DNA of 64,000 nucleotides, taken from positions 124,001 to 188,000 of the forward strand of contig JAUSAZ010000073.1 in assembly GCA_030652255.1 (NCBI GenBank), written 5' to 3'. Shown here one piece after another: positions 47,564-55,179 of the stretch (position 1 is its first letter; each line of letters begins with the position of its first letter). Made by a program: the position numbers and the translations under genes. The notes under the pieces are model-generated. The model searched no databases and had not been told where the DNA came from. It was given only the letters and a program-made list of their open reading frames with translations. The stretch comes from Myxococcales bacterium (GTDB lineage: Bacteria > Myxococcota_A > Polyangia > Polyangiales > Ga0077539).

Positions 47564-47630
47564 GCCCGCCAACGGCGTCCCGTTCTTGAGCCAGCGTGCT
47601 CGAGACCGTAGCGTCCCCCCCGACGCGCTG

Positions 47631-49913
47631 ATGTCCCCCACCCGCACCATCGTCCCCTGGCCCGAGCTCGCCGCGCTCGGCGCCCTCTTCGTCGCCGTGG
47701 CGGCGTGGAGCGGCGCGGGGCGCCCGGTCGACCCCCGCGGGCTCGCCGTCGCGGCCATCGCGGTGCTGGTGGCGCTCAGCCCCAAGCGCCTCGCCCGCGA
47801 GGGCCACGGGGCGCAGGCGGAGGCCATCGCCGTCGCCGCCGCCCTCGGCGCGCTCTCCGTCGCCACCGTGGTCGCGGGCTTCCACCCCGGCTCTCGCGCC
47901 CTGCGCATCGCGCACGCCCTCGCGTCCGGCGAGCTCCTGGGCCTCTCCACGGTGCTCGCCTTCGCGCAGCCGATGCGCACCGAGTCGCTGCGCCGCGCCG
48001 CCCTCCCGGGCGTCTTCGTGGCCGTCGTCGGCACCGTCGGCCTCTGGCCCGGGGCCGACCACTGGTTCCCCGGCTCGCGCGCGCTGGCGCCGGTGGCCGT
48101 CGGAATCGCGGCGCTGCTCCACCTCGCGGCGCTCCAGCGCCCGGTGGCGCCGGTCGAGCGCGCCCGCTGGATCTACCCCACCCTCGGCGTCGCGGCCCTG
48201 GGGCTCGCCGCGCTCGCGCGCAGCCTCACGAGCGTCGGCGACGGCGCCCTGCTCGCCTGGGCCCTCGGCGTCGCGGCGCACGTCCTCGGCCTGGTGGTCG
48301 GACACTCCGACGCCTCCGCCGCGCAGGCCGGCCCCTTCGCGCGGCGCACCCTCGCCGCCGCCGTGGGCTTCGTCGCGGGCGCGGTGGCGCTGGTCTTCGG
48401 CCCGGGCGCGCCGCTCACGGCGATGGCCATCGGGCTCGGCGTCGGGGCCTTCCTGCTGCCCGTGCTCGACCGCTGGCTGCGCCCCTCGGACGGCCGCCTC
48501 CTCGACGCCTGCGCGCGCATCGGGCGCGGCCTCGCGCGGGCCGAGGGCCTCGACGAGCTCGCCGCCGCGGTGCTCGACCCGCTGCGCGAGGCGGCGCGCA
48601 ACCTCCGCGCCCCGGCGGCCTTCTGGGTGCTCGACGGCGCGCGGGTGCTGCAGGTCGACGTGGCGGGCACGGCCTCGGTGCGCCCGCTCTCCATCGAGTC
48701 CGAGAAGGTGATCGTGACCTGGCTGCGCACGCGCCCGACGGTGGTGTTCACCGACACGTTGCGCCCGCACCTCGTGCGCCGGCCCGAGCTGCGCCCGGTG
48801 GTCGACGCCCTCGACGGCTACGAGGCCTTCGCGGCGCTGCCCCTGTGCGACGCCGAGCAGCTCCTCGGCGCGGTGATCATCCCGCGCGGCGACCGCACGG
48901 CGCCCGCGAGCTTCGAGGAGGAGTCGGCCCTGGAGACCGTGCGCCGCCACATCGAGGGCGCGCTCCTGCGCATCCTGGCGGCCGAGCGCTCGGGCCAGCG
49001 CGCGGCCGAGGCGCTGCGGCGCGAGGCGGCGGAGGCGCGGCGGGCGGACATCGCAGAGTCCGAGCTGGCGCGGGTGGGCGCGCTGGTGGTCGAGTCGACC
49101 TCGGTGATCGCCCTCGGCCCGCGGATGACGCAGTGGATCGCGTACGCCCCCGCCACGCGCGCGCTGCAGGCCGCGCTCGACACCCTCGCGCCCACCGAGG
49201 GCCCGGTCGCGCTGGTGGCGGCGCCGGGGGTCTCGGTGCGCGCGGCCGCGGGTCGGCTGCACCGGCAGGGTCCGCGCGCGGGCCGCGGCCTGGTGGTGCT
49301 CGATGGGTCGAGCGTCGACGCCCGCGCGGTGCTCCCGGTGCTGCTGGGCGACGCCCGCGGCGAGAGCCCGGTGCCCGGCTGGCTGGAGCGCGCGGCGGGC
49401 GCGACGCTGCTCGTCGAGCACGCGGCCGCCCTCGGGCACGAGGGGCTCTCCGCGCTGGCGAGCGCCCTCGAGCGGGGCGTGGCCCGTCGGCTGGGCGACG
49501 AGGTCGCGTACGCCGTCGATGTACGGGTGATCCTCGGCCTGCCGCGCGACCCGGGGGAGTGTGACCTCCCCGCGGCGCTCGGGCGCAGGCTGGCCGGCCG
49601 CGTCGCGCGGGTGCCCTCGCTGCGCGAGCGCGCCGACGACCTCGAGTCCCTCGTGTACGCCGCCATCGACCGCGCGTGCCGCTGCGCCGACCGAAGCCCG
49701 CTGGGCATCGCGCCCGACGCCCTCGCCGCGCTGCGCGCCCACGCCTGGCCGGGGGAGCTACCCGAGCTCGAGGCCGCGCTCGCCTACGCCGTGGCCGCGG
49801 CGCGCGGCTCGCGCATCCAGACCGACGACCTGCCGCCGCTGGTGCGCGCGTCGGTGTTCACCCTCGCGCGCGGCGACATCGATCGCGGCCCCGGCGCGGC
49901 GCTCGACGACTGA
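47631..49913 (+). CDS. Membrane-GAF protein with a degenerate NtrC-type AAA+ domain
   Basis: From ATG 47631 (760 residues) the first 290 residues form about eight membrane helices. A GAF-like domain follows (about 295-440), then a coiled-coil (near 452-486). The remainder resembles a sigma-54 activator AAA+ domain at its C-terminal end: RVPSLRERADDLESLV near 660 and LRAHAWPGELPELEAALAYAV near 705. The Walker A region reads VALVAAPGVSVRAAA without GxxGxGK. No GAFTGA loop is seen, and the Walker B acids are gone (LLVEHAAA). There is no DNA-binding HTH. It is likely a sensor or scaffold rather than an activator. Confidence 0.75.
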   Translation: MSPTRTIVPWPELAALGALFVAVAAWSGAGRPVDPRGLAVAAIAVLVALSPKRLAREGHGAQAEAIAVAAALGALSVATVVAGFHPGSRALRIAHALASGELLGLSTVLAFAQPMRTESLRRAALPGVFVAVVGTVGLWPGADHWFPGSRALAPVAVGIAALLHLAALQRPVAPVERARWIYPTLGVAALGLAALARSLTSVGDGALLAWALGVAAHVLGLVVGHSDASAAQAGPFARRTLAAAVGFVAGAVALVFGPGAPLTAMAIGLGVGAFLLPVLDRWLRPSDGRLLDACARIGRGLARAEGLDELAAAVLDPLREAARNLRAPAAFWVLDGARVLQVDVAGTASVRPLSIESEKVIVTWLRTRPTVVFTDTLRPHLVRRPELRPVVDALDGYEAFAALPLCDAEQLLGAVIIPRGDRTAPASFEEESALETVRRHIEGALLRILAAERSGQRAAEALRREAAEARRADIAESELARVGALVVESTSVIALGPRMTQWIAYAPATRALQAALDTLAPTEGPVALVAAPGVSVRAAAGRLHRQGPRAGRGLVVLDGSSVDARAVLPVLLGDARGESPVPGWLERAAGATLLVEHAAALGHEGLSALASALERGVARRLGDEVAYAVDVRVILGLPRDPGECDLPAALGRRLAGRVARVPSLRERADDLESLVYAAIDRACRCADRSPLGIAPDALAALRAHAWPGELPELEAALAYAVAAARGSRIQTDDLPPLVRASVFTLARGDIDRGPGAALDD

Positions 49914-50870: not shown

Positions 50871-51602
50871 ATGAACCATGTGATCTACGGCTTTCTCGTC
50901 ACGTTCCAGCACCAGGCACCGGGCGGGGGCACGGCGCACATGCCGAGCTCCTACGAGCTCGTCGCCCAGGCCACCCTCCCCGTGAAGATGGTGGTCCTGC
51001 TGCTGCTGATCTTCTCGATCGCCTGCTGGTACATCATTGGCTACAAGTGGCTCTACCTCCGCCGCGCCTTCGCGGAGAACGAGGCCTTCCTCCAGATCTT
51101 CGAGCAGACCCGGCAGCTCAACGTCGCCGCCGAGGCCGCCTCGCAGCGCCCCCGCAGCCCCATCGCGGCGATGTTTCGCGCGGGCTACGACGAGCTCCTG
51201 CGGGTGAAGGCCGCGCACGAGGGCGACGACGCGCCGGGCATCGAGAACGTCGAGCGCGCCCTGCGCCGCGCCTTCTCGCGGCAGACCACGGTGCTCGAGA
51301 GCATGGTGCCCTTCCTCGCGACCACCGGCAGCACGGCGCCCTTCATCGGCCTCTTCGGCACGGTCTACGGCATCATGCACGCGTTCGTGCAGCTCTCCGC
51401 GTCGCGCGACACGGCCACCATCGACCGCGTGGGCCCCGGGATCGCCGAGGCGCTCTTCACCACCGCGGTGGGCCTCGTGGCCGCCATCCCCGCAGTCATC
51501 GCGTACAACTACTTCGTGCGCCGCCTGCGGGTCATCACCACGGAGATGGACATCTTCGGCAACGACTTCCTCAACATCGTGCGCCGGCACATCCTGAAGT
51601 AG
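50871..51602 (+). CDS. tolQ: TolQ, proton channel subunit
   Basis: The 243-residue protein has three membrane helices: one near residues 37-57 and two in the C-terminal half. The latter contain TGSTAPFIGLFGTVYGIM and ALFTTAVGLVAAIPAVIAYN, the MotA/TolQ/ExbB signature. It powers TolA by proton flow across the inner membrane with TolR. The tolR start is 7 bp downstream. ExbB is the alternative name for near-identical proteins. The neighbouring tolB supports the Tol assignment. Confidence 0.9.
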   Translation: MNHVIYGFLVTFQHQAPGGGTAHMPSSYELVAQATLPVKMVVLLLLIFSIACWYIIGYKWLYLRRAFAENEAFLQIFEQTRQLNVAAEAASQRPRSPIAAMFRAGYDELLRVKAAHEGDDAPGIENVERALRRAFSRQTTVLESMVPFLATTGSTAPFIGLFGTVYGIMHAFVQLSASRDTATIDRVGPGIAEALFTTAVGLVAAIPAVIAYNYFVRRLRVITTEMDIFGNDFLNIVRRHILK

Positions 51603-51609
51603 CGCCGCG

Positions 51610-52047
51610 ATGTCGTTCTCCAGCAACAGCAGCGGCGGTCCGATGAGCGAGATCAACGTCACGCCCCTCGTGGACGTGATGCTCGTGCTGCTCATCATCT
51701 TCATGGTCACCGCGCCGATGGTCCAGGCGGGCCTGCGGGTCGACCTCCCCAACGCCGAGGCCCCCGCGCTCCCCACCACCGAGACCAAGCTCCGCGTCAC
51801 CATCGGCCACGAAGACGCCGCCAACCTCGCGTCGCCCATCACCATCTGGATCGGGCAGGACCGCACCACCCTCGAGCGCCTCACCGAGCAGCTGCGCGCC
51901 AACGCCATCGTGCAGCGCGACCACGAGGCCTATGTGCAGGCCGACGAGAGCATCCCCTACGGCATCGTCGTGCGGGTGCTCGCGGCCATGCGCACCGCCG
52001 GGGTCGAGCGCCTCGGCATCGTCACCGACCCCCTCAGCAGCCAGTAG
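51610..52047 (+). CDS. tolR: TolR/ExbD, proton channel subunit
   Basis: The 145-residue protein has a single N-terminal helix with the conserved proton-carrying D22 in VTPLVDVMLVLLIIF, then a periplasmic domain (KLRVTIGHEDAAN). It pairs with TolQ. Its stop is 18 bp from the convergent ECF sigma gene, so the tol operon is interrupted here, and tolA and tolB resume after the sigma gene. Confidence 0.9.
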   Translation: MSFSSNSSGGPMSEINVTPLVDVMLVLLIIFMVTAPMVQAGLRVDLPNAEAPALPTTETKLRVTIGHEDAANLASPITIWIGQDRTTLERLTEQLRANAIVQRDHEAYVQADESIPYGIVVRVLAAMRTAGVERLGIVTDPLSSQ

Positions 52048-52659: not shown

Positions 52660-52705
52660 GATGTTCAACCTCCGCCCCAACTCCAGTCGGGTTGTCCAAT
52701 GTTTG

Positions 52706-52721
52706 AGCAATGTAGGTGCCA
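52706..52721 (-). promoter_or_regulatory. Sigma-54 promoter (-24/-12) of the ECF sigma gene
   Basis: On the minus strand the sequence reads TGGCACCTACATTGCT. The consensus is TGGCAC-N5-TTGC(A/T), so only the first spacer purine is off. The predicted start is near 52695, giving a 36-nt leader with a good Shine-Dalgarno before the ATG at 52659. Confidence 0.8.
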
Positions 52722-52803
52722 CGCTGGGTTTCTCGGAAAACACGGATATACAAGCCTTGGACAGCGCCACGTTCTGTGACACCGGAGCTGCCTTGGCGAT
52801 GCC

Positions 52804-52823
52804 TTGTGCAACGTTTTGTTCAA
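52804..52823 (-). promoter_or_regulatory. Tandem TTGTnCAA sites, candidate activator binding sites
   Basis: TTGTGCAA (52804-52811) and TTGTTCAA (52816-52823) are repeated palindromes 12 bp apart centred about 112 and 124 bp upstream of the predicted sigma-54 start, the usual distance for an enhancer site. A third copy, TTGTCCAA, lies at 52692-52699 near the start site. They are shared with the divergent tolA-like gene. Confidence 0.5.
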
Positions 52824-52904
52824 CCCCCTGGGGGAGAGGAGGGGCGTCAAAGGTCGTCGCGGCGTCTGGGGTTCTGGTAGACGAAGCGAGAGGAGCTGCG
52901 AACC

Positions 52905-53837
52905 GTGACCACGCCGCCGCCGACCCACCGTCCGCCTCCCACGCGCGATCCGAGCGTGCCGGGCATCTCGCGCCCATCGATCCCCTTCGCGGTGGGGGTC
53001 ACCTCGTCTCCCCCTCCCCCGTCGCCGCTCAGGCTCCGCGAGCGCTCGCAGGGCAACGACGCCCCCGGCGTCGCGATGGGCGTCCTCGCCGCGGCGCTGG
53101 TGCACGGCCTCGTGGTGCTGCTCTCGCTGCGCCTCAGCCACGACGAGGGGAACATCAACGTCCAGCGCCCGCGCGACCCGCGCGAGGACGTGGTGCTCGA
53201 GACCCACTTGTTACAGCGGGGCGGCGGGGTGTTCGACCCGCGGCGCCAGGTGCACCGCGAGGTGCCCATCCGGGCCGAGCGCGAGGCGCCCCAGGTGGTC
53301 GCGCCCACCGCCGACCCCACGCGCGTGGCGCTCGCCCGCGACGCCGGCGCGCAGGACTACATGGCCGCCATCACCGGCCGCACCCGCCGCGGATCGGGCA
53401 ACCAGGACCTCGCGGAGCTCAACCGCATCGCGCAGATGGCGGCCGCCGAGGCCGCGGCGGACCCGACGGCGGCGGGGCCGGGTGACCCGAGCGGCAGCGA
53501 CCACGGCGACACCACCGACCCCAACCTCGCGACGCGCGGCGCCGGCACGAAGATCGACCGCTTCCTGCGCGAGCACATCCGGCTCTCGGCGACGCTCACA
53601 GGCTCCGAGGCGCGCACGGTGACCTTCCGCATCCGCCTCGACCCGACGGGGGTCATCGAGCTCGCCGAGCTGCACACGCCGTCGGGCAACGAGAGCCTCG
53701 ACGGCGACATCCTCAGCCAGGCCCAGCGCCTCGCCACCACCCACGCGCGGGTGCCCGACCTCACGCCCGAGGAGCTCAGCAGCGTCGCGGGCGTGAACAT
53801 CAACGTGCGCGTGCCCATCGACCGCATCGCGCACTGA
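52905..53837 (+). CDS. tolA: TolA/TonB-like energy-transducing protein
   Basis: The 310-residue protein has a Pro-rich N-terminus, one membrane helix at 54-77 and a long Ala/charged periplasmic stalk. A C-terminal TonB-like domain follows (KIDRFLREHIRLSATL, TVTFRIRLDPTGVIELAEL, VPDLTPEELSSVAGV). It would link the TolQ-TolR motor to TolB and the outer membrane. TonB is the alternative. The position between tolR and tolB favours TolA. The start is GTG 52905 with AGGAG 9 nt upstream. Confidence 0.75.
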   Translation: MTTPPPTHRPPPTRDPSVPGISRPSIPFAVGVTSSPPPPSPLRLRERSQGNDAPGVAMGVLAAALVHGLVVLLSLRLSHDEGNINVQRPRDPREDVVLETHLLQRGGGVFDPRRQVHREVPIRAEREAPQVVAPTADPTRVALARDAGAQDYMAAITGRTRRGSGNQDLAELNRIAQMAAAEAAADPTAAGPGDPSGSDHGDTTDPNLATRGAGTKIDRFLREHIRLSATLTGSEARTVTFRIRLDPTGVIELAELHTPSGNESLDGDILSQAQRLATTHARVPDLTPEELSSVAGVNINVRVPIDRIAH

Positions 53838-53892: not shown

Positions 53893-55179
53893 ATGCGAAG
53901 GCAGCTCCCTGGTATCCTCATCGCGGCGGCGACAGCGGCCGCGGCGCTCCCCCCGCTGCTCTCCGACGCGCAGCCCCTCCCTCCCACCCGACCGGCGACG
54001 CCGGGCACCGGCGAGCTCACCATCACCCTCCAGGGCCTCGAGGCCCGGCTGCTGCCGGTCGCCATCCCGGCCTTCCGCGGCGCGGGCGGCGACGCCGTGT
54101 CCGCGGTGGTGTCCAACGACCTGCGGCTGAGCGCGCTCTTCCGGGTGCTCGACCCGCGATCGTTCACGGCCGACCTCGACGCCGAGGGGCTCGCCATCAC
54201 CCCGGCCTCGTGGACGAGCGTCGGCGCCACCGCCGTCGTGAAGGCCTCGGTCACGGGCAGCGGCGACGCCACCCGCATCGAGCTCAAGGTCTGGGAGCCG
54301 GGCAACCCGAGCGCCCCGCGGCTCACGCGCACCTACGGCCCGGGCAGCCCGCGCGCGCTCGCGCACCGCATCGCCAACGACCTCATCCTGCTCTACACGC
54401 GCACGGCGGGGGTGTTCGGCACCCGCATCGCGTTCGCGCGGCGCACGGGCAACGGCCGCAAGCAGATCTTCTCCGTCGACTGCGACGGCGAAAACCTCGC
54501 GCAGGTCTCCGCCGGGCGGCGGCTCAACTTCACCCCCGCGTGGGGGCCCGGGGGCATCTACTTCTCGTCGCAGACCCCGGACGGCTTCCTCGCGCTCTTC
54601 CGGCAGGGGCGCAGCGAGCCCGTGCTGCGCGCCGACGGGCTGGTCATGGGCGCGGCCTTCGGCGGCGGCCGCATGGCGGTGGTTCTTACCCGTGACGGTA
54701 ACAGCGAGATCTACGTGGGCTCGCCCGACGGCGGCGGCCTGCGCCGTCTCACCAACGACCCCGGCGCGGACATCACCCCGGTGTGGTCGCCCGACGGCTC
54801 GAAGATCGCGTTCGTCAGCGACCGCTCCGGCGGGCCGCAGGTGTACGTGATGGACGCCGGCGGCGGCGGTCAGCGGCGCGTGAGCTTCCAGGGCACCTAC
54901 AACACGGGCCCCACGTGGGCGCCGGACAGCCAGACGCTCGCCTACGCGGGCCGCGGCGGCGGCGCGGCGGACATCTTCACGGTCAACCTCGCGGGCGGCG
55001 CCGTGCGCCGGCTCACCGAGGGCCAGGGGAACAACACCGACCCGACCTACTCGCCCGACGGCCGGCTCATCGCGTTCAGCTCGTCGCGCGGGGGCATCTT
55101 CCTCATGAACCAGGACGGCCTCAACCAGCAGCGCATCCTGCCCGGCGTGGCCGAGGGTCTGCGCTGGGAGCCCCGGTGA
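53893..55179 (+). CDS. tolB: TolB, periplasmic beta-propeller of the Tol-Pal system
   Basis: The 428-residue protein has a signal peptide (MRRQLPGILIAAATAAAALPPL), an N-terminal alpha/beta domain and a six-bladed propeller with WD40-like PD40 motifs: TPVWSPDGSKIAFVSDRSGG, GPTWAPDSQTLAYAGR and DPTYSPDGRLIAFSS. It links TolA to Pal in the outer membrane. No pal gene is seen downstream. ATG 53893 is placed by a hairpin-flanked promoter just upstream. The stop overlaps the start of the next gene (GTGA). Confidence 0.92.
   Translation: MRRQLPGILIAAATAAAALPPLLSDAQPLPPTRPATPGTGELTITLQGLEARLLPVAIPAFRGAGGDAVSAVVSNDLRLSALFRVLDPRSFTADLDAEGLAITPASWTSVGATAVVKASVTGSGDATRIELKVWEPGNPSAPRLTRTYGPGSPRALAHRIANDLILLYTRTAGVFGTRIAFARRTGNGRKQIFSVDCDGENLAQVSAGRRLNFTPAWGPGGIYFSSQTPDGFLALFRQGRSEPVLRADGLVMGAAFGGGRMAVVLTRDGNSEIYVGSPDGGGLRRLTNDPGADITPVWSPDGSKIAFVSDRSGGPQVYVMDAGGGGQRRVSFQGTYNTGPTWAPDSQTLAYAGRGGGAADIFTVNLAGGAVRRLTEGQGNNTDPTYSPDGRLIAFSSSRGGIFLMNQDGLNQQRILPGVAEGLRWEPR

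Follow-up and report, generated by a model that had tools for sequence, protein, structure and literature searches.

An ECF sigma factor gene with a predicted sigma-54 promoter, inserted in the Tol-Pal gene row of a myxobacterial lineage

Comparison of the analyzed stretch of DNA (64 kb; hereafter the window) with related genomes strongly supports a sigma-54 promoter as the driver of an ECF sigma factor gene, which is placed within a Tol-Pal gene row (table 1). The promoter, two upstream dyads, the conservation and spacing of these elements and the derived nature of the insertion are read directly from the aligned sequences. The whole account, in which an activator acting on the dyads would lead through sigma-54 to the inserted ECF gene and from there to tolA, is considered probable.

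The Tol-Pal Gene Row and the ECF Gene

The row in the window runs from tolQ and tolR through the ECF gene, which lies on the minus strand, and a divergent tolA-like gene to tolB. The TonB C-terminal match of the tolA-like gene is sub-threshold, and its Shine-Dalgarno sequence is GAGGAG at 52890. Upstream of tolQ, the alignment showed a separate conserved promoter-like element (TTGACA).

The ECF protein carries sigma-70 regions 2 and 4 only, with no extension past region 4. The latter is covered by the NCBIfam superfamily model, while Pfam at E 0.001 gave no hit for it, and among the NCBIfam models the protein is over cut-off with the general ECF superfamily model only. A longer reading frame of the gene, starting at 52977 and running through the promoter, was rejected as not conserved, since the congeners have far shorter frames. 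No anti-sigma gene adjoins the ECF gene, its neighbors being tolR and the tolA-like gene. This arrangement, together with the lack of an extension after region 4, is an indication that the factor is probably controlled mainly at its sigma-54 promoter. It fits the orphan ECFs without an anti-sigma factor, which transcription alone may govern (PMC8103513).

Table 1. Features of the Tol-Pal Row and of the Region Upstream of the ECF Gene (Window Positions)
Feature	Position	Strand	Basis
tolQ	50871..51602	+	NCBIfam tolQ over cut-off
tolR	51610..52047	+	Pfam ExbD/TolR; NCBIfam tolR best hit, below cut-off
ECF sigma factor gene, 197 aa	52066..52659	-	Pfam Sigma70_r2 and NCBIfam sigma70-ECF superfamily, over cut-off
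Shine-Dalgarno GGAGG of ECF gene, well placed	52669..52673	-	Sequence; GGAG conserved in congeners
Predicted ECF transcription start, ~12 bp downstream of -12 GC	52694..52698	-	Predicted from the usual sigma-54 geometry
Sigma-54 -24/-12 element TGGCACCTACATTGCT	52706..52721	-	Exact consensus match, 0 mismatches
Candidate activator site 2, dyad GTCACAGAACGTGGC	52766..52780	-	Center 52773, 65 bp from -12
Candidate activator site 1, dyad TGAACAAAACGTTGC	52808..52822	-	Center 52815, 107 bp from -12
Candidate tolA-like promoter AAAGGTC-N17-TCTGG	52849..52877	+	ECF-type geometry; block conserved
Divergent tolA-like gene, GTG start	52905..53837	+	Between tolR and tolB
tolB	53893..55179	+	Pfam TolB_N over cut-off; NCBIfam propeller_TolB best hit, below cut-off

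The Predicted Sigma-54 Promoter and Its Conservation

The element was scored against the consensus TGGCAC-N5-TTGCW (-24 GG / -12 GC), and 46 bp separate its end from the ECF ATG (52659). A preliminary description of this DNA had claimed a nearly perfect match 47 bp ahead of the start, with a Shine-Dalgarno GGAGG at the right distance, and both the match, which is in fact exact, and the Shine-Dalgarno were confirmed. Across the 9.37 Mb genome, the consensus is matched exactly at 3 sites including this one, where the reversed control pattern gave 0, and 0 mismatches were reached by 0/300 dinucleotide shuffles of the ECF upstream region.

The other two exact matches of the genome lie elsewhere. 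The second, TGGCACCAGGGTTGCT (G000:C60:52006-52021), precedes a P-type-ATPase-like gene by 15 bp and is found again in the congener G003. The third (G000:C183:46938-46953) falls within the final codons of a flagellin gene and may be a coding coincidence.

Orthologs of the ECF gene were found in seven relatives of the same family (69-98% identity), four of them in the same genus, and the other genomes searched gave generic ECF matches only. The named records of the ECF-bearing relatives are uncultured Myxococcota-type metagenome assemblies. In all eight genomes having the gene, the sigma-54 element is located upstream of it with 0-2 mismatches (none in G000, G002, G003 and G004, one in G001, G006 and G009, two in G005), and its GGCA and TGC are invariant. 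Within the genus, the distance from the element to the start codon is 46-47 bp and the pairwise identity of the 16-bp core reaches 83%, versus 46% for the 60 bp upstream. Only 0-2 of 300 dinucleotide shuffles matched the real element in seven of the regions. In G005, 17/300 equaled it, so that this match is weak on its own.

It is very improbable that the likeness arose by chance and that the ECF gene is transcribed from a different promoter, since the presence of the element in 8/8 orthologous regions and the rarity of equally good shuffles in 7/8 outweigh the facts that sites with up to two mismatches are no commoner in the window than in its shuffles and that another exact match ends a flagellin coding sequence. 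The claim that sigma-54 drives the ECF gene is further borne out by the gene content of the genome, with a single rpoN and approximately 50 strong sigma-54 activator domains.

Paired Dyads Upstream of the Promoter

Two tandem TTGTnCAA octamers had been proposed earlier as the upstream activator sites. They do exist (52804-52811 and 52816-52823), at about the right enhancer distance, but they are not a conserved unit: neither is present in three of the four congeners, and they are overlapping parts of a single dyad (52808..52822), which contains most of both. The genome search suggested for finding the regulon of the octamer returned 66 matches, fewer than the reversed control. TTGTnCAA therefore does not mark a regulon, and it was rejected as an activator box on both grounds.

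Within the 64 kb, TTGTnCAA occurs three times against a mean of 0.4 expected, a count reached in 1/100 shuffles. The third copy, TTGTCCAA at 52692-52699, overlaps the predicted ECF start and is not conserved; at its position G001 has a similar TTGTTCAA.

The conserved upstream unit is a 15-bp dyad, GYMACR-NAA-CGTKRC, in two copies, the lower of which had been missed in the preliminary description. In all five congeneric genomes, site 1 is found 107-108 bp and site 2 65-66 bp from the -12 G, and the spacing between them is exactly 42 bp. The upper dyad is also present in genus g3 (G006), with two mismatches, 109 bp from the -12 (composition shuffle probability ~0.0007). In the upstream regions compared, the dyads are not recognizable in genus g2, G005 and G009, and g2 may use a different activator or a different site.

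In the present genome, only the lower site matches the exact dyad pattern. In the four genomes searched, zero-mismatch matches of the pair at 42 bp were confined to the ECF locus, so that the regulon of the activator may be very narrow. A perfect dyad, TGCAACG-N3-CGTTGCA, was also tried genome-wide and gave no excess over the control. The congeners also share a weak third dyad-like copy, GTCACGGTTCGCAGC (~52894-52910, 3-4 mismatches), which overlaps with the start region of tolA.

An activator is required at a sigma-54 promoter, and paired dyads at such a distance are typical for sigma-54 enhancers. Both points speak against the idea that the dyads serve a conventional repressor or activator of the divergent tolA-like gene and not a sigma-54 enhancer-binding protein. 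Their position between the two genes and the overlap of the weak third copy with the tolA start codon region in congeners would suit such a regulator, but the distance of the dyads to the -12 is constant (107-109 bp) whereas that to the tolA start varies, and this explanation is considered unlikely. The dyads are thus best taken as candidate enhancer sites of the ECF promoter.

Candidate Activators

No true sigma-54 activator gene is located within the window, and none is linked to the ECF gene, the only one nearby being a degenerate activator-like gene (775 aa, 47586-49913). Its product looks membrane-anchored and has a degenerate sigma-54-activator AAA domain; in relatives whose contigs reach it, the gene adjoins the rhomboid and tolQ genes. 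The protein is unlikely to be a classical activator, because the domain is without the Walker A GK and without GAFTGA and a recognizable DNA-binding domain was not found.

G005, of genus g2, has a GAF hybrid histidine kinase between tolR and the ECF gene and a complete response-regulator sigma-54 activator ~6 kb away (loci L009:18-1472 and L061:147-1910). The latter was rejected as a shared activator: its best match among the ~50 loci of the present genome is only 43% identical, and an ortholog is not evident. At the activator loci of this genome, the dyad gave two-mismatch matches only.

Origin of the Insertion and the Divergent tolA-Like Gene

In four genomes of sister genera (G007, G008, G010, and G012) and in the order outgroups, tolR is closely followed by tolA or a tolA-like frame (in G014, no TolA match was scored in the gene-order comparison), and the ECF gene, the sigma-54 site and the tolA block are missing. 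Based on this distribution, the ECF gene with its two-way regulatory region is most simply explained as a derived insertion between tolR and tolA. It would have happened in one lineage of a myxobacterial family, where the ancestral tolQRA row was cut.

The candidate promoter of the tolA-like gene ends 28 bp before the GTG start. The block, AAAGSTC-N17-TCTGR, is found in G000-G004 and G006, and in the five genomes searched it has a single exact match per genome, always at the tolA locus. No copy was found at other genes of these genomes, so that an ECF regulon is not apparent from it, and its uniqueness points to a regulon of very small size or to a promoter of another type.

Two readings of the block are therefore weighed. 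According to the one, sigma-54 drives the ECF gene, but tolA has a promoter of the ordinary or of some other kind, and all targets of the ECF factor are elsewhere. The absence of the block from all other genes, unlike what is expected of a shared ECF promoter motif, favors this reading, as does the fact that the block is not clearly seen in G005 and G009, two of the eight ECF-bearing genomes. On the other hand, the spacing of the block is ECF-promoter-like, with no evident sigma-70 match; relatives without the ECF gene lack the block, whose appearance coincides with the insertion; and a divergent gene as ECF target has a precedent in hrpL/hrpJ. A separate tolA promoter has close to an even chance. 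According to the other reading, the ECF factor reads the block and tolA depends on it, which the same evidence makes possible, if slightly the less favored of the two. The link to the tolA-like gene drawn in the preliminary description accordingly stands as far as the derived insertion and the conserved promoter-like block are concerned, and ECF control of tolA remains the conjectural part of it.

Comparison with Known Systems

The closest likeness is to hrpL, which is under sigma-54 control with HrpRS (PMC5263251; PMC8103513). As in Pseudomonas syringae and Pantoea (sigma-54 with HrpRS or HrpS), sigma-54 would transcribe the ECF gene with the help of an activator at upstream sites, an arrangement that is predicted here. 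In the hrpL/hrpJ pair, the divergent promoter is ECF-dependent and near the activator site, the hrp-box lying 15 nt from the UAS (PMC5263251). Similarly, the present ECF gene is divergent from its neighbor, with 26 bp between dyad 1 and the start of the tolA block. The two systems differ in their setting, type III secretion in the case of hrpL and a Tol-Pal neighborhood in a different bacterial phylum here. Moreover, there is no adjacent activator gene in the present case, and the general ECF superfamily model is the only one over cut-off for the ECF protein.

The P2 promoter of Escherichia coli rpoE is controlled by sigma-54 with QseF (PMC8103513), and it likewise belongs to an envelope-linked ECF gene. 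However, rpoE has six promoters and the anti-sigma factor RseA, whereas one sigma-54 promoter and no adjacent anti-sigma gene were found here. Sigma-54 control of the bacterial exterior has been proposed as a general theme (PMC3162934). Compared with ordinary tolQRA(B) operons, the genes and their order are the same, but between tolR and tolA there is now the ECF gene with its two-way regulatory region.

A Proposed Relay and Its Meaning

In the proposed mechanism, sigma-54 RNA polymerase would wait in the closed state at 52721-52706, and the promoter would be opened by an enhancer-binding ATPase, the product of a gene elsewhere in the genome, on its binding to the two dyads. With centers 65 and 107 bp upstream, the dyads would be aligned on one face of the helix, 42 bp corresponding to about four helical turns. 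The insertion of the ECF gene between tolR and tolA would have severed the tolA-like gene from tolQR, and the promoter-like block of the severed gene would most simply be read by the new ECF factor, forming a relay from the activator through sigma-54 and the ECF factor to tolA. In this scheme we infer the binding of the activator, the direction of control and the dependence of tolA on the ECF factor. A wider evolutionary scenario, in which a self-contained sigma-54/ECF relay was inserted into the ancestral row and captured the tolA-like gene and possibly the genes from tolB on, with tolQR remaining under housekeeping control, is offered tentatively.

Sigma-54-driven ECF genes are already known; the novelty lies in the Tol-Pal setting and the insertion, and a non-exhaustive literature search found no description of a sigma-54/ECF module in Tol-Pal. 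The present gene would add to the HrpL and RpoE cases a further one with sharply defined sites. The Tol-Pal system is commonly seen as a constitutive machine of the envelope. If the account is true, a part of this core machine would be inducible by a dedicated activator, and tolA, seemingly put under a sigma-54 to ECF relay by the insertion of a regulator gene, would exemplify regulatory rewiring.
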